Assembly (NCBI GenBank): GCA_017619355.1
Contig: JAFZSO010000043.1
Span: 1-38,346 of the forward strand
Direction of reading: 5' to 3'
Source of the DNA: Muribaculaceae bacterium
Lineage (GTDB): Bacteria > Bacteroidota > Bacteroidia > Bacteroidales > Muribaculaceae
DNA length: 38,346 nt
The notes beneath the pieces are model-generated. The model was given only the letters and a program-made list of their open reading frames with translations, had not been told where the DNA came from and did no database searches. The position numbers were made by a program, and so were the translations under genes. Positions 27,778 through 38,346 of this stretch are shown here, one piece after another (within the stretch, counting starts at the first letter, position 1; each line of letters starts with the position of its first letter).

Positions 27778-27913
27778 TTGACACCGGTAGTTGCCACTTT
27801 TTGAAATTATAACCCCTCACCGTCAATGAAAAAAAACCGCGTCAGCGGCTTTGTGTGCCACCGGCTTTGTGAGATTATTGTTGCGTAGTTGCGTGCCAGC
27901 CCCTTTGCGGGAG
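27778..27913 (-). repeat. Terminator-bearing repeat, copy 1
   Basis: The core 27827-27909 is identical over 83 bp to 28173-28255. Flanks such as TTTGACACCG and CCCCTC-CCGTCA are also shared. On the minus strand it reads CAAAGGGGCTGGCACGCAA and ends in CCGC-TGAC-GCGG plus a run of eight T, like a terminator. The first part matches the segment before the terminator at 4077. Confidence 0.85.
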
Positions 27914-28010
27914 ATTCCCCGCGCCGACGCAAGTAATTCATTCAAAAGTTGCGAAACAAGTTCGTCAAAAAGTTTCGAAAAGCCGGCTGACAAATCATTC
28001 AACCACACAA

Positions 28011-28060
28011 CAAAAATCAGCCATTTTGCGATTTTTTTTTTTGAAAACGGCTGATTTTTG
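28011..28060. repeat. Inverted repeat between the two direct repeat copies
   Basis: CAAAAATCAGCC (28011-28022) is the exact complement of GGCTGATTTTTG (28049-28060), with extra A-T pairing inside and a ten-T-or-longer run in the loop. Confidence 0.6.
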
Positions 28061-28121
28061 CAAAGGTGTGTCAAGCAAATTGCACTCATTTTCAGCGAAT
28101 AATGTATTATAGACTATCAAC

Positions 28122-28260
28122 TTTTTGACACCGATAGGTGCAACTTTTTGAATTAATTCCCCTCGCCGTCATTGAAAAAAAACCGCGTCAGCGGCTTTGT
28201 GTGCCACCGGCTTTGTGAGATTATTGTTGCGTAGTTGCGTGCCAGCCCCTTTGCGAGAGG
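28122..28260 (-). repeat. Terminator-bearing repeat, copy 2
   Basis: The second direct copy, 346 bp downstream of the first; its core is 28173-28255. A further fragment of the family, CCGCGTCAGCGGCTTT, occurs near 30429-30444. Confidence 0.85.
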
Positions 28261-28467
28261 CCCCCCGCGTCGTCCAAAAATCAGATTCATCAGAGAATCC
28301 GTAGTTTTTTTTGTTTCGGCTTTGCGAGAGGATTTTTAAGGGCGGAGCCCGTCCCAAAAAGAGTCAGAAATGGGGGCGAATTTTCGCAGGGAAAATCAAT
28401 GTGTATTGTTAAAAATCGCTCTTTGCTGATTTTTAGCGGATTACAGCGTGTTAAAGGACTTCAAAAA

Positions 28468-34479: not shown

Positions 34480-34554
34480 CGGGATGTAGCTCAGTCCGGT
34501 TAGAGTACGCGTCTGGGGGGCGTGGGGTCGCTTGTTCGAATCAAGTCATCCCGA
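34480..34554 (+). tRNA. tRNA-Pro (anticodon GGG)
   Basis: 75 nt without encoded CCA. The acceptor stem CGGGATG pairs with CATCCCG, with discriminator A. The D arm contains GCTC...GAGT, the anticodon stem is 34508-34512 with 34520-34524, and the loop CTGGGGG has anticodon GGG at 34515-34517. The T arm is CTTG-TTCGAAT-CAAG. It is followed directly by a terminator and then by the accessory gene block, so it may be an island integration site. Confidence 0.92.
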
Positions 34555-34560
34555 CTGATG

Positions 34561-34600: not shown

Positions 34601-34667
34601 TCCTTCCAACAGACGAACCTTTCTTCAAAGCTGCTTCCTTGCCGTCGATTGTAAGTGATATAGCCAT
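34593..34667 (-). pseudogene. Short ORF, probable truncated gene start
   Basis: 24 codons on the minus strand beginning MAISLTIDGKEAALKK and ending GRKK before TAA. It lies just downstream of promoter-like TACCTTTG (minus strand, 34689-34696) and runs into the tRNA terminator. The start looks like a genuine N-terminus whose remainder is missing, as if cut off when the accessory block joined the tRNA side. A functional small peptide cannot be excluded. Confidence 0.4.
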
Positions 34668-34668
34668 A

Positions 34669-34731
34669 AGTTAAGCGGTTGAGATACGCAAAGGTAACTC
34701 AACCGCTTGATGCCGTAAAAGACGATACTTA
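34669..34731 (-). repeat. Promoter-bearing 3' repeat, copy R1 (after the kinase gene)
   Basis: On the minus strand it begins at the kinase stop (TAAGTATCGTCTTTTACGGC) and continues ATCAAGCGGTTGAGTTACC, TTTGCGTAT, CTCAACCGCTT. The TACCTTTG box sits in the loop of an 11-bp hairpin AAGCGGTTGAG / CTCAACCGCTT. Related copies follow two other genes (R2 and R3). Confidence 0.75.
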
Positions 34732-35247
34732 TATAAGGGACTCTATCGTTGCATTGTAATCATCATCTATCAATGTTACTTGCTCTCCGCTTTGGGAAAA
34801 TCCATTTATATAGTAATGATTGTCGGCCTTCAGAGATTCGGAAATACAATCGGTATCATTTAGCCTCGCTTCGATGTCAGAGGCATGTGCCTTAATCATA
34901 TCAAAATGTGCATCGATATAATCATCGGTCATGGCAAGGCACACAAACCGTATTGACAGCAAATAATCCTGGCTAAATTCCTTTCGCCAGTCAAAGGGAA
35001 TGTAACAACCTTCAACGATGAGATTCTGGCGGTTTTCAATCGCAGTCTTTATCATTTCTCTAACGATGGGCCAGAGATACGCTGTCAGCGCCTCATCATC
35101 CTCTGGCGTGAGGTCGGTATTGCCGCTGCGTATCAACCCCATTTTAAGGTGGTCGATGGAGAGATACGGATAACCGTATTTCTCGAGCATCCGTTGCGCC
35201 AGGAGCGTTTTGCCTGTGTGAGAGGAGCCAGTTATCAGTATAATCAT
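34729..35247 (-). CDS. P-loop kinase/ATPase, function unknown
   Basis: 172 residues. Walker A GSSHTGKT is at residues 7-14, followed by LSIDHLKMGLIRSG, which resembles the substrate region of small-molecule kinases (adenylate or 2-phosphoglycerate kinase-like fold). The region VEGCYIPFDWRKEF may be the Walker B strand. No membrane or signal sequence is seen. Its start overlaps the stop of the Vat-like acetyltransferase by 4 nt (ATGA), so the two are coupled and may modify the same compound class; that is inference. Repeat R1 begins at its stop codon. Confidence 0.85.
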   Translation of the reverse strand: MIILITGSSHTGKTLLAQRMLEKYGYPYLSIDHLKMGLIRSGNTDLTPEDDEALTAYLWPIVREMIKTAIENRQNLIVEGCYIPFDWRKEFSQDYLLSIRFVCLAMTDDYIDAHFDMIKAHASDIEARLNDTDCISESLKADNHYYINGFSQSGEQVTLIDDDYNATIESLI

Positions 35248-35900
35248 AGTCTTGCTTGTATCTCTTTCTTCACTTTTTCTGAATCACCACATGAGAGAAT
35301 TGGCATCAGTTCTTCTATCTCTTCGATGCTTTTATCCCACCACTTGAATTTGAGCAACAATTCAATCAATTCATCATCGAATCGCATCTTGACGACCCTG
35401 CAAGGATTGCCCACAGCAATGGAATATGGGGGGATATCTGATGCGACAACTGAGTTTGCTCCAATAATGGCTCCATCGCCAATGTTAACACCTGGCATGA
35501 CAGTCACATTTTGACCAATCCACACATCATTGCCTACAACTGTATCACCCTTATATGGCAATTCGTCTTTCACAGGAGCCATTGCGCTTCCCCAATCTCC
35601 GCCTATCACGTAGAAGGGATAAGTGGTAACACAAGACATTCTATGATTTGCCCCATTCATAACAAACTCAATCCCCTTGGCAATAGCACAGAACTTGCCT
35701 ATAATCAATTTGTCGCCGATGAAGTCGTAGAAATGTGTCACATGTTTTTCAAATTGTTCTGCACCATCCACATCGTCGTAATAGGTGTAGTCACCGACGA
35801 TAATGCGGGGGCTCTTCACCACGTTCTTGATGAAGCAGAGGCTTGGAATCTTCGGATTCGGGAAATCCACGTCGGGATTCGGTCTGTTGGAAATCTTCAT
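35244..35900 (-). CDS. Vat-like xenobiotic O-acetyltransferase (hexapeptide-repeat)
   Basis: 218 residues, full length for the streptogramin A (Vat) / xenobiotic acetyltransferase family. The N-terminal motif VGDYTYYDD, then IGDKLIIGKFCAIAKG and MNGANHRM carry the expected catalytic His (His86). Left-handed beta-helix repeats (VVGNDVWIGQNVTVMPGVNIGDGAIIGANSVV) and the C-terminal FKWWDKSIEEI follow. Known relatives use acetyl-CoA to modify streptogramin A or similar compounds; the substrate here is unproven. It is coupled to the kinase. Upstream lie the 83-bp repeat and a TACCTTTG box (35924-35931, minus). Confidence 0.9.
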   Translation of the reverse strand: MKISNRPNPDVDFPNPKIPSLCFIKNVVKSPRIIVGDYTYYDDVDGAEQFEKHVTHFYDFIGDKLIIGKFCAIAKGIEFVMNGANHRMSCVTTYPFYVIGGDWGSAMAPVKDELPYKGDTVVGNDVWIGQNVTVMPGVNIGDGAIIGANSVVASDIPPYSIAVGNPCRVVKMRFDDELIELLLKFKWWDKSIEEIEELMPILSCGDSEKVKKEIQARL

Positions 35901-35923
35901 AACAAAAAGCTGCTAACAATGTG

Positions 35924-36006
35924 CAAAGGTAGGCATTATTTCTTTACTTGCGTTTATTCTTGGGACTTTTATTGTTCATCAACCTTTGGTAGTCATCCTG
36001 CGCCTG
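35924..36006 (-). repeat. 83-bp 5' repeat, copy a (before the Vat-like gene)
   Basis: 74 of 83 positions match 36776-36858 by eye. On the minus strand it reads as a C-terminal coding tail (QAQDDYQRLMNNKSPKNKRK, stop) followed by the -7-like box TACCTTTG that precedes the vat-like gene. Here the tail frame is open back to about 36058 but has no start codon. Confidence 0.8.
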
Positions 36007-36045
36007 TTTGATACTGAGATCACCTGTTATGGTGACTAAAATTCT

Positions 36046-36130
36046 CTTATTATACTTTTGTCAACATTGCCAAAGGTAACTCAACCGCTTTAATACTTGA
36101 AAGACGATTCTGATAAATTGTAATTTACTT
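36046..36130 (-). repeat. Promoter-bearing 3' repeat, copy R2 (after the CatA-like gene)
   Basis: Minus strand: starts with AGTAAATT, which includes the cat-like stop codon, then TCAGAATCGTCTTT, AAGCGGTTGAGTTACCTTTG (box at 36071-36078), GCAATGTTGACAAA and TATAATAAG. Copy R3 matches over nearly the whole length at the same distance from its stop codon. Confidence 0.8.
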
Positions 36131-36745
36131 GAGCCGATTTATTTCTTCTTGCAGATTGAACAAAAATTTTCCTGCGTGGGCACCATCCATCTGCGTGTGG
36201 TGAAATTGGAAAGAAATGGGAAGTTCATATCTGAAAAACTTCTTCCTGTATCTCCCCCAAATCATGAACGGATTATTGAAAATGCCACTATTCATACCTA
36301 CAGCGCCGTCAATCTCCGTGTCAATGATGGCTGACGTTCCAATAACCATACATTCATCCGACAAGTCCCTGTCTTGGCAACTTTCCGCCACCTTCGAAGT
36401 ATATTCCTGGTACTGACTGTTGAACAGCTCCAAATCATCTGTAAAGTGTATATCGCACGAAGACACTTCACCTTCTTTGTTTTTGACGATGGTATTGACT
36501 GCAAGAAAGTCGTATTGAATCAATTTGTCTCTCACAGGGAGAAGATAAAACTCTTTAATGGAAGATGCAGCTTTACCGATGCACCAGTTCAACAGCATAT
36601 TTAACTTGCAGCCCTTCTTCTGACTAATTCTTACCAACCGCGTAATATCTATCGTCTTGAAGAATGTAACCATCGGGTTGGGTGCCTTCATCCACAACTC
36701 AAAGGCTTGAGCACGGTTGGTTTCTTTTGGATTTACTTCACGCAT
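36125..36745 (-). CDS. CatA-like chloramphenicol acetyltransferase family protein
   Basis: 206 residues, slightly short for type A CAT. The N-terminal region NPMVTFFKTIDITRLVRISQKKG matches the CAT pattern before the first helix. The active-site motif HHTQMDGAHAG (His 182-183) corresponds to the family's HHxxxDG, and the C-terminal helix FLFNLQEEIN fits. CATs form trimers and acetylate chloramphenicol with acetyl-CoA; many distant members have other or unknown substrates, so resistance is not claimed. A TACCTTTG box in the 83-bp repeat lies upstream (36776-36783, minus). Confidence 0.85.
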   Translation of the reverse strand: MREVNPKETNRAQAFELWMKAPNPMVTFFKTIDITRLVRISQKKGCKLNMLLNWCIGKAASSIKEFYLLPVRDKLIQYDFLAVNTIVKNKEGEVSSCDIHFTDDLELFNSQYQEYTSKVAESCQDRDLSDECMVIGTSAIIDTEIDGAVGMNSGIFNNPFMIWGRYRKKFFRYELPISFQFHHTQMDGAHAGKFLFNLQEEINRLK

Positions 36746-36775
36746 AAATTCCGAGTTATCGTTCTAATTACGCTG

Positions 36776-36858
36776 CAAAGGTAGTGATTATATCGCTACT
36801 TGCGTTTATTCTTGGGACTTTTATTGTTCATGAGCCTTTGGAAGTCACCCTGCGCCTG
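36776..36858 (-). repeat. 83-bp 5' repeat, copy b (before the CatA-like gene)
   Basis: Partner of 35924-36006. It contains the end of the 58-residue ORF (QAQGDFQRLMNNKSPKNKRK) and the TACCTTTG box. Confidence 0.8.
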
Positions 36859-36972
36859 GTGAGATAAACTTGGCTGCGCCTCAGCAAATTGAGTGAACTC
36901 GTCTGCGTTCGGCTTGCTAAATATTTCACGCAGGTTATTGTTCTCGACAGTTGGTGGACGGCGGGAGGTCAT
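36796..36972 (-). CDS. Small hypothetical ORF overlapping the vanW-like 3' end
   Basis: 58 codons from ATG (36970-36972) to TAG (36796-36798). It starts MTSRRPPTVENNNLREIF and ends NNKSPKNKRK, overlapping the VanW-family gene by 38 nt in another frame. The last 20 residues recur, with three changes, in the repeat before the vat-like gene. The composition looks protein-like (SKPNADEFTQFAEAQPSLSH), so this may be a real small protein or the tail of a lost gene. The family is not recognised. Confidence 0.4.
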   Translation of the reverse strand: MTSRRPPTVENNNLREIFSKPNADEFTQFAEAQPSLSHQAQGDFQRLMNNKSPKNKRK

Positions 36973-37759
36973 ACATCACCTTGGCATGGTTGGTACGGAT
37001 AAGTTGGCTTTCGAGATGACGGCCAGTAACACGGTCGATGACATCGCGATAAACCTCTCCGTTTCTATAGATAACATTGTCTTCGCGTGAGAAGTATTCG
37101 TTCTCAGCATGGATGTGGAAAGTGTGTGCTTGGAGTTCAGCAGTGCGGAGTTCACCACACAAGTATTCACCATCTACCCAGAGACGAAGCTGATAGGTGT
37201 TGTCGGTCTCGTTCTTCACGCGGTAGTCGATGTAGTTGTGGGAGATGCTGGTGCCTGTGCCAAATGGAATCTGTCGGCCATAGTCTGGAAAGAGGTCGAG
37301 ACCGTCGTGGTGGTGATGCTCCACGATGGTAAGGTCGCTATGTAATATCATCCAGTGAATCAAGTTCGAGAGTTGGCACAATCCGCCACCAATGCCCTGA
37401 GATGGCTGTCCCTTGGCGATAGTCAGCCCCTCTTTATAGCCTTTGCCCTTGGAGGTTCTGCCAATCATCTTCCACACGGAGAATGTTTCGCCAGGGCGAA
37501 TAAGAATACCATTGATATGGGTAACAGCCAGGGAAAGGTTGGCCGCCTTGTTCTCCTGCAACTGCATATTAACATTACCCAGTCGGCGTCGAATGAGAGA
37601 CTTGTGACGATAGACAAGGACGGGCAGAGACGACTCTATCCGTTCACGTGCGAAAGGTGCTTTCCAGAAGAAGTCCTTCACATGACGCTTCAAGATTTCT
37701 TTCTCCATCGACAAGCGATAGGTAAATGGGGATATTTCACAAAACAGTTTCCTGCTCAT
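36935..37759 (-). CDS. VanW-family protein
   Basis: 274 residues. The VanW core contains LSLAVTHINGILIRPGETFS, GRTSKGKGYKEGLTI, GQPSQGIGGGLCQLSNLIHW and the His-rich VEHHHHDGLDLFPDYGRQIPFG. The family was named from VanB-type vancomycin-resistance clusters, but its biochemical role is unknown and most members are unrelated to resistance. No signal peptide is evident. The minus-strand TATCTTTG box at about 37796-37803 is a likely promoter. It lies in the same-strand accessory block between the CPBP gene and the CatA-like gene. Confidence 0.9.
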   Translation of the reverse strand: MSRKLFCEISPFTYRLSMEKEILKRHVKDFFWKAPFARERIESSLPVLVYRHKSLIRRRLGNVNMQLQENKAANLSLAVTHINGILIRPGETFSVWKMIGRTSKGKGYKEGLTIAKGQPSQGIGGGLCQLSNLIHWMILHSDLTIVEHHHHDGLDLFPDYGRQIPFGTGTSISHNYIDYRVKNETDNTYQLRLWVDGEYLCGELRTAELQAHTFHIHAENEYFSREDNVIYRNGEVYRDVIDRVTGRHLESQLIRTNHAKVMYDLPPSTNCREQ

Positions 37760-37795
37760 ATTTTCTTATGGCACATCATCAGCGTACATTTGTTG

Positions 37796-37803
37796 GCAAA
37801 GAT
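37796..37803 (-). promoter_or_regulatory. -7 element of the VanW-family gene
   Basis: TATCTTTG on the minus strand (plus-strand CAAAGATA). No matching TTTG at the right spacing was found, so the promoter is tentative. Confidence 0.45.
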
Positions 37804-37869
37804 AGTGAAAAATCTACAAATAATAGTTCAAGGGAAGCCTATATGTGCCGGTCACGGTGACAAATGATC

Positions 37870-37952
37870 ACTTATTATATTTGTCAACATTGCTAAAGGT
37901 GGGCCAACCGCTTGATGCCTTAAAAGACGATTCTGAAAGATTGGAATTTACT
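37870..37952 (-). repeat. Promoter-bearing 3' repeat, copy R3 (after the CPBP gene)
   Basis: Minus strand: GAGTAAATT including the CPBP stop codon, then TCAGAATCGTCTTTTAAGGC, ATCAAGCGGTTG, GCAATGTTGACAAA and TATAATAAG. The promoter-like box has decayed here (CACCTTTAG instead of TACCTTTGG). It is homologous to R2 and, over its first half, to R1. Confidence 0.78.
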
Positions 37953-38346
37953 CTTCTTTACCTTGCCGTTTGGGGGAAATACCAACAAAATACCATATGA
38001 CTATCCAAAAGACGATGACGCAGACAAAAGCCACGGTGAAAGCTGTGTCGGAAAACAGGTCACGTTTCGTGAAATTAACGATGCCATGAAATGCAGCGCA
38101 TAATAGCAATGAATGGGTTTCGCTCACCACCTTTCCTAAGCCCCATGAAGCGAAAAGCAGAAGCAGGAAGAATGGCAAGACACTTCGCTGACTTAAATCT
38201 AGATGCCACAGAAACCACATCACCGTGATGATAAGTACAGACTGCCACACAGGCAATTTCCTGAGTTCATATTGCAAAAATCCTCGCCAACCATATTCTT
38301 CCAATAGCCCATACGCAAATGCCCACAAACATGTCACGCCCAAATC
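37948..38346 (-). CDS. CPBP-family intramembrane metalloprotease (5' end beyond the window)
   Basis: Only the C-terminal 132 residues are in the window; the frame is open to the right edge, so the N-terminus is missing. It shows the CPBP/Abi signatures EEYGWRG (EExxxR), a membrane segment with WFLWHLDLS, and AAFHGIVNF (HxxxN), with three or four hydrophobic segments and a basic tail. Such proteases cleave within the membrane; in bacteria some act in peptide-toxin self-immunity. It is in the same orientation as its accessory neighbours, and repeat R3 starts at its stop codon. Confidence 0.87.
   Translation of the reverse strand, partial: DLGVTCLWAFAYGLLEEYGWRGFLQYELRKLPVWQSVLIITVMWFLWHLDLSQRSVLPFFLLLLFASWGLGKVVSETHSLLLCAAFHGIVNFTKRDLFSDTAFTVAFVCVIVFWIVIWYFVGISPKRQGKEE

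Follow-up and report, generated by a model that had tools for sequence, protein, structure and literature searches.

The window analysed here is the whole 38,346-nucleotide (nt) contig C56 (JAFZSO010000043.1) from the draft genome of a Muribaculaceae bacterium (GCA_017619355.1), which measures 2.6 Mb and is 89% complete. Its right-hand end carries an array of minus-strand genes interspersed with copies of two short repeats, R and D2 (Table 1). In the direction of transcription, the order is a CPBP gene cut by the contig end, R3, a VanW-like gene, D2b, a CatA-like gene, R2, D2a, a hexapeptide acyltransferase gene, a kinase-like gene and R1, after which, at the end of the array, comes tRNA-Pro(ggg) on the plus strand. 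From comparison with relatives, we consider it very probable that the array consists of phage cargo cassettes, stacked in tandem and left behind where a phage had attached at tRNA-Pro(ggg).

Table 1. Features of the array in the window (TMP, tape measure protein; A, phage gene A; aa, amino acids)
Feature	Position	Strand	Basis or remark
tRNA-Pro(ggg), attachment-side tRNA	34480..34555	+	ARAGORN
Remnant of gene A start, ~19 codons, MAISLTIDGKEAALKKGSS	34611..34667	-	motif search
R1, gene A leader; putative promoter CGTCTTTT, 20 nt, TACCTTTG inside hairpin	34669..34729	-	
AAA kinase-like cargo gene, 172 aa	34729..35247	-	Pfam AAA_33, E 4e-5, under curated cut-off
Hexapeptide acyltransferase (CatB/Vat-like) cargo, 218 aa	35244..35900	-	Pfam Hexapep, E 9.7e-12
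Putative cargo promoter -7 box TACCTTTGCA, right behind TMP stop	35922..35934	-	sequence
TMP 3' fragment, part of D2a, ending ...QRLMNNKSPKNKRK stop	35944..36034	-	
Linker TTGACAAAAGTATAATAAG.. connecting R2 with TMP tail	36038..36064	-	
R2, 5' half of R	36065..36111	-	
CatA-like (chloramphenicol acetyltransferase-fold) cargo, 206 aa	36125..36745	-	Pfam CAT, E 5.3e-13
TMP 3' fragment, second TMP variant, part of D2b	36795..36932	-	outer limit approximate
VanW-like cargo, 274 aa, without R behind	36935..37759	-	Pfam VanW, E 3e-39
Linker of R3	37863..37887	-	
R3, 5' half of R	37888..37934	-	
CPBP (Rce1-like) cargo, cut at contig end 38346	37948..38346	-	Pfam, E 5.7e-13

A sequence-only reading of this stretch had described four accessory genes in one orientation, each ending at the same edge of a promoter-bearing repeat, and had likened them to integron cassettes. 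The repeats are real: R2 and R3 are 82% identical over 73 nt, R1 and R2 66% identical over that length, and a profile built from all three matches relatives (best E value outside the window 9e-17) and finds no copies in the window's own genome beyond these three. Likewise, genes in one orientation closed by a shared 3' element with a promoter motif are indeed what the array contains. The common edge held in part, being exact for R2 and R3, where the CatA-like and CPBP genes stop 14 nt before the repeat, and 14 nt off for R1 because the kinase gene stops at its first base. Only three of the four genes had been named as ending at the repeat, and the VanW-like gene is followed by a TMP tail, not by R. 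Nor did R1 gain its hairpin, as had been supposed: the hairpin form is usual in relatives, R1, next to the tRNA, is complete, and R2 and R3 are degenerate, a linker standing where the 3' half would be.

The second repeat, D2 (35922-36006 and 36774-36858; 89% identity over 85 nt), had not been used in that reading and was decisive for recognising a prophage slot. Beside R in relatives, the start of a phage gene that we call A (MAISLTIDGK..) lies behind R, and D2 holds the end of a second protein (..QRLMNNKSPKNKRK). D2 is the 3' end of the TMP gene and R the leader of gene A, and both repeats, previously unrecognised as such, are the edges of a prophage cargo slot. By tblastn, the D2a fragment matches TMP residues 405-433 (83%, E 1.5e-9) and the D2b fragment residues 369-433 (43%, E 8e-5). 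The remnant of the A start falls within a 106.5-bit match to the R model (34644-34730); too short for tblastn, it gave no match at E 0.001. Phage sequence in the window is limited to these TMP tails and the 19-codon A start.

R carries candidate expression signals. The motif TAnnTTTG, rightly taken earlier for a Bacteroidetes -7 box, is present in 102 of 131 matches to the R model (7.5 expected), and 85 of the 102 have CGTCTTTT upstream at a spacing of 20 nt (82) or 21 nt (3); a passage of PMC7366714 gives the Bacteroides -7 and -33 consensus. The dyad of R, with arms of ~13 nt around a 6-nt centre, pairs in 92% of cells, and both sides of the stem have changed at 11 of 14 pairs among 130 distinct rows of an alignment that was fitted to the model; this exceeds all 500 shuffles and every slid version. 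As a possible sign of a terminator, at least four T lie within 8 nt behind the 3' arm in 115 matched rows, in a region that is A+T-rich. The hairpin covariation is equally compatible with a DNA operator and an RNA hairpin.

A first DNA search returned R-like matches in 17 of 61 genus genomes. With a model of 87 positions and a threshold of E 0.001, R was found in 85 of 101 genus genomes (45 of 48 among the better genomes), and the many copies preceded by different genes are what the sequence-only reading had anticipated; R is neither tied to one fixed gene order nor part of one conserved operon. A family-wide draw gave R in 30 of 247 genomes, seven of the 30 outside the genus (E 2.3e-10 to 6e-4), and an exact-pattern scan of named genomes hit seven contigs whose titles read Muribaculaceae, Prevotellaceae or Bacteroidales, most of them of rumen or omasum origin. 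At E 1e-5, 75 of the 101 genus genomes have a match to gene A, and the window's genome is not one of these. Only the genome tallies (for R in the genus and the family, gene A, the linker and the integron integrase) are unconditional; frequencies among the loci below (numbered L) are conditional because the loci were picked by a match to R or gene A. Three of them (L069, L082 and L255) are one contig, judged by equal length, and L069/L082 and L130/L074 are identical across 3087 nt; counts for clusters C10 and C11 are therefore inflated. Arrays are probably under-counted in draft genomes, since assemblies break at these phage ends.

Intact prophages of relatives have the order TMP, cargo, R, A, tyrosine integrase and tRNA, which was seen in L050, L040, L043, L089, L090, L194, L195, L197, L200 and L202. 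In L050, TMP and gene A are whole, the cargo proteins measure 355 and 106 aa and A 646 aa, and the integrase lies on the opposite strand between gene A and tRNA-Val. Intact prophages that end at tRNA-Pro(ggg), the tRNA of the window, include L195, L198, L201 and L049. Searches of TMP hit tape measure families (phrog_2854, E 1.6e-14) and those of the integrase hit phage integrases (phrog_1, E 5.5e-24). The G010:C13 prophage, which is of the same family, has an empty slot and lies at tRNA-Pro(ggg), encodes a terminase large subunit upstream (phrog_2, E 1.2e-9); homology to tailed prophages in relatives covers tail (TMP), packaging (terminase) and integration (integrase). For gene A, the PHROG match is marginal (E 0.0017); one unannotated phage record contains a relative with 26% identity, and five IMG/VR contigs contain others. 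The predicted structure of A is unusable (mean predicted local distance difference test score 33).

The slot also occurs empty. In 12 loci (L049, L196, L198, L201 and L206-L213), TMP and A overlap (ATGA) or lie at most 25 nt apart, and R is present between them in none of the 12; four have a close A and eight (L206-L213) a distant A lineage with ~35-60% local identity. In filled slots, the insert runs from the TMP stop to the A start. Set against one another, the 12 empty slots and the filled ones show cargo inserted between phage genes that are adjacent in relatives, a mark of phage morons. In two prophages of the distant A lineage (L204 and L205), ~2.9 kb without R separates TMP from A, and in L014 the slot is filled and R too degenerate for the profile.

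We scored 147 R-ended units, 95 of them with a TMP end as left bound. These TMP-bounded units have a median length of 838 nt and hold one gene in 56 cases, two in 28, more in 10 and none in one, and the last cargo stop precedes R by a median of 12 nt (at most 30 nt in 74 of 94 units). At the other end, 71 of 94 units have TAnnTTTG no more than 60 nt past the TMP stop, compared with ~4 expected by shuffling and 2.6% of random windows. A prophage family of the genus carries foreign genes in one slot between TMP and the late gene A, where, we propose, a promoter directly behind the TMP stop would drive the cargo. The insert would sever gene A from its operon, for which R could compensate: placed at the cargo stop, this hairpin with its own -33/-7 promoter would restart expression of gene A.

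Tandem units consisting of TMP tail, promoter motif, cargo, R and A start occur inside a prophage (L090) and as chromosomal relics. Two cassettes, one encoding 151 aa and the other a pair of 266 and 304 aa, stand in L090, which looks like an intact prophage (TMP open reading frame (ORF) of 1547 aa, A, integrase, tRNA-Val); L102 has three cassettes, after which A is whole and an integrase and tRNA-Gly follow; and the slot of L197 contains an additional TMP-tail fragment. By eye, the L090 gene pair (L090:9054-10740) resembles a histidine kinase and a response regulator. Elsewhere, consecutive units are joined via a short A start and a short TMP end. Among 36 joints, a set restricted to R-to-TMP-tail distances below 700 nt that favours short scars, eight have a common linker and 27 others could be placed, giving 19 A/TMP breakpoint pairs at a 4-nt tolerance, some of which are softly distinguished because joint ends were set by BLAST. 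Clear joints differ: L036 has 108 nt of A and 120 nt of TMP with 9 nt shared, the L046 joint shares 4 nt, and the L098/L117 joint has 192 and 168 nt with 0 shared. A single recombination site at R was rejected because the breakpoints vary.

Stacking may result from unequal recombination between the A start of one phage slot and the TMP end of another or, alternatively, from deletion between tandem prophages, and would leave a short A-start/TMP-end scar. The TMP retained in cargo units measures about 35-230 nt. In a list of truncated A copies behind R, made without the 700-nt limit, 34 of 42 retain no more than 130 of the 646 aa, against 20% if breakpoints were evenly spread; in one member, L069, the cut is the edge of the fetched locus. 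Selection for short scars, by packaging for example or by the host, could explain this excess. The linker found in eight of the joints lies between R and the TMP tail at 10 places in five of 101 genus genomes (twice in the window, and in L032, L035, L036, L037 and L144). It is partly an inverted repeat (TTGACAAA..TTTGTCA), and its L035 copy adjoins the A-side hairpin half in reverse orientation.

We compared homologous cassettes from different genomes with at least 400 nt on both sides, which gave 37 pairs, 29 of them at least 80% identical. Six of the 29 represent one prophage family (C10) and are alike along their whole length. In all of the other 23, which come from seven cargo clusters only (10 from C3), the alike block extends at most 278 nt left of the TMP stop and at most 231 nt right of R. 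A cassette of the array L036 (G008) and one in the slot behind a whole TMP in L108 (G034) are 98.5% identical over 2003 nt that reach from the TMP tail to the A start; L113 and L116 are 97.5% identical over 1851 nt; and L102 and L118 have three alike blocks (96.7-99.4%), two of them in swapped order. Such blocks show that cassettes are units of exchange, which may be shuffled through their shared flanks. Red-type enzymes recombine diverged phages, according to PMC2327257; no recombinase was identified in this analysis.

The tRNA genes show prophage geometry too. Of the 116 R copies that no whole A follows and that have 200 nt or more of sequence behind them, 15 lie within 1 kb of a tRNA; the 17 tRNAs concerned are without exception downstream and on the opposite strand, which is the polarity of the prophages (0 of 17 in the other three geometries). 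The window has this geometry, at a distance of 114 nt; its tRNA side is recognised by position, and its other end falls outside the contig. The phage may have been lost by deletion, the cassettes persisting beside the tRNA under selection. Several contigs, among them L249, L252, L257, L258 and L260, stop just past tRNA-Pro(ggg) or R. Near the presumed left end of the intact G010:C13 prophage at tRNA-Pro(ggg), a degenerate cassette (L244:4300-4900; ~30.3-30.9 kb of the contig) contains a membrane-protein-like ORF, an R-like dyad and a TMP tail, a pattern that serial lysogeny would leave.

The slot is a general cargo slot. Gene content and order vary between genomes, as the sequence-only reading had supposed: 202 cargo proteins of at least 50 aa, duplicates included, form 119 clusters, 77 of them single. 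Pfam and PADLOC scans took 95 of 115 cluster representatives. These 95 match 86 Pfam families, the commonest with three of 95 representatives, and the families listed mostly have a single member; the 25 listed include sulfatase-modifying factor, GDSL lipase, Na/Ca exchanger, cation efflux, CrcB, short-chain dehydrogenase, FMN reductase, YhcG nuclease, HepT and AraC. At E 1e-5, 48 PADLOC models match, and the 25 listed match one of the 95 representatives each. A defence or resistance array, the theme originally proposed, was rejected on these PADLOC and Pfam results.

In the window, the kinase-like gene belongs to cluster C1, present in five genomes, and the CatB/Vat-like gene to cluster C12, found also in L035. 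The CatB-kinase pair recurs in L032, L144 and L035, with a CatA-like gene directly after it in L035; relatives of the window's CatA-like gene occur in L035 and L036. The CatB-like and kinase genes, though in one cassette, have unlike histories, their synonymous divergence (dS) against L032 being 0.23 and 1.23, respectively. The ratio of nonsynonymous to synonymous divergence is 0.02-0.32 where dS is computable, which shows purifying selection on those array genes that were compared. Outside the array, at 27823-28357, a stretch SRKGAGTQLRNNNLTKPVAHKAADAVFF is common to two adjacent minus-strand ORFs; this intergenic repeat has no relation to R.

Several observations weigh against an origin of the array from phage cargo slots. 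The window has no whole phage gene, and neither gene A (E 1e-5) nor the prophage integrase was found in its own 89% complete genome, because of which the apparent prophage origin rests here on the flanks, that is, the two TMP tails and the short A start. No R match was obtained in 16 of 101 genus genomes, and 99-101 of the 116 R copies that are not in intact prophages have no tRNA within 1 kb. Under stricter preset block ends (-200..+60 and -60..+200), 13 fell within bounds out of 29 exchange pairs, a total that counts the six C10 pairs. The TMP of L102 is frame-shifted, and the linker of R2 and R3 is not accounted for by the slot model. A plainer account would be that serial prophage integrations at the same tRNA decayed to their cargo ends, with no need of cassette exchange. 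This agrees with the uniform tRNA polarity (17 of 17), with a complete R1 beside the tRNA and degenerate R2 and R3 farther away, and with the cassette-like fragment in L244. However, L090 holds two cassettes within an intact-looking prophage, the L102 and L118 cassettes are nearly identical in swapped order, and blocks of high identity that end at the TMP tail and at R have unlike neighbours. Decay by itself moves no cassettes; we regard it as an improbable full explanation that probably contributes to the pattern.

In integrons, cassettes of unrelated genes line up in one orientation, have the same kind of 3' element and vary in order between genomes, and the array shares all of these traits. 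If R were the site of a dedicated recombinase and the units travelled as circles, its dyad would have a fitting outline, that of a tyrosine-recombinase site, and the reversed hairpin half joined to the linker in L035 would suit this too. Nevertheless, the integron integrase (TIGR02249) is above cut-off in 0 of 101 genus genomes, its weak matches in 100 of 101 recurring in 14 of 14 control genomes, and by inspection the arms of R (GGTTGAG..CTCAACC) stand in the opposite order to the attC consensus arms (RYYYAAC ... GTTRRRY). Moreover, unlike integron cassettes, each unit has its own putative promoter, the flanks are phage coding sequence, empty phage slots lack R, and 19 breakpoint pairs among 27 placed joints without linker are not one fixed crossover. 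We rejected the integron reading as very unlikely, and what stands of the original interpretation is a cassette-like anatomy and behaviour of the array, without an integron-like site or a defence theme. We give even less credence to an ordinary series of chromosomal operons whose repeats are regulatory sites of one regulon. A promoter-like dyad could bind a repressor, and its covariation fits a DNA operator too, but R is attached to fragments of two phage genes, the cargo has no common function, and throughout the genus R recurs at this one phage slot, which prophages have in empty and filled form.

A tandem array of phage cargo cassettes has partial counterparts among known systems. P2/P4-type elements have cargo hotspots with diverse accessory genes between conserved phage genes. 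The slot described here likewise holds diverse accessory genes at one spot between conserved phage genes; it differs in phage and host group and is set apart by scarred units in tandem and by relic arrays on the chromosome. Closest are phage morons, or lysogenic conversion genes, defined in a passage of PMC2920897 that cites Hendrix et al. As that passage describes them, morons also lie between two phage genes adjacent in relatives, have their own transcription signals (here candidate motifs), occupy insertion hotspots and may outlast the phage. In contrast to morons, the slot has fixed ends for any cargo, a promoter motif behind TMP and R before A, its units stand in tandem with TMP-tail/A-start scars, and chromosomal arrays share units with prophages. 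In the Escherichia coli O157 prophage pools described in part of PMC2669165, recombination among resident, partly broken prophages similarly spreads cargo; those are whole defective prophages, whereas here cargo units retain only the short TMP ends given above. Among the titles and abstract openings listed from open-access full text in PubMed Central, none described arrays of this kind.

Phage morons are known; what is new is a standard slot with cassettes that stack up, leave short scars and persist after the phage has gone. More tentatively, and with the odds in our view somewhat against it, chromosomal arrays and phage slots could form one exchange pool, from which phages would gain and drop cargo via the TMP end and the R/A start. 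This would be a counterpart of a chromosomal superintegron, driven by phages and free of an integrase, its slot a ready expression platform with a promoter before the cargo and a terminator and restart promoter behind it. The arrays also caution that integron-like arrays can form without an integron. Overall, cargo gain and stacking in phages are mostly inferred from mosaic genomes, whereas here the scars are still legible: each joint is marked by short ends of both neighbouring phage genes, empty and filled slots can be aligned, and the same cassette occurs in prophages and chromosomal arrays. Moron accretion thereby becomes testable joint by joint, in a rumen-type Bacteroidales genus in which 85 of 101 genomes have the element.

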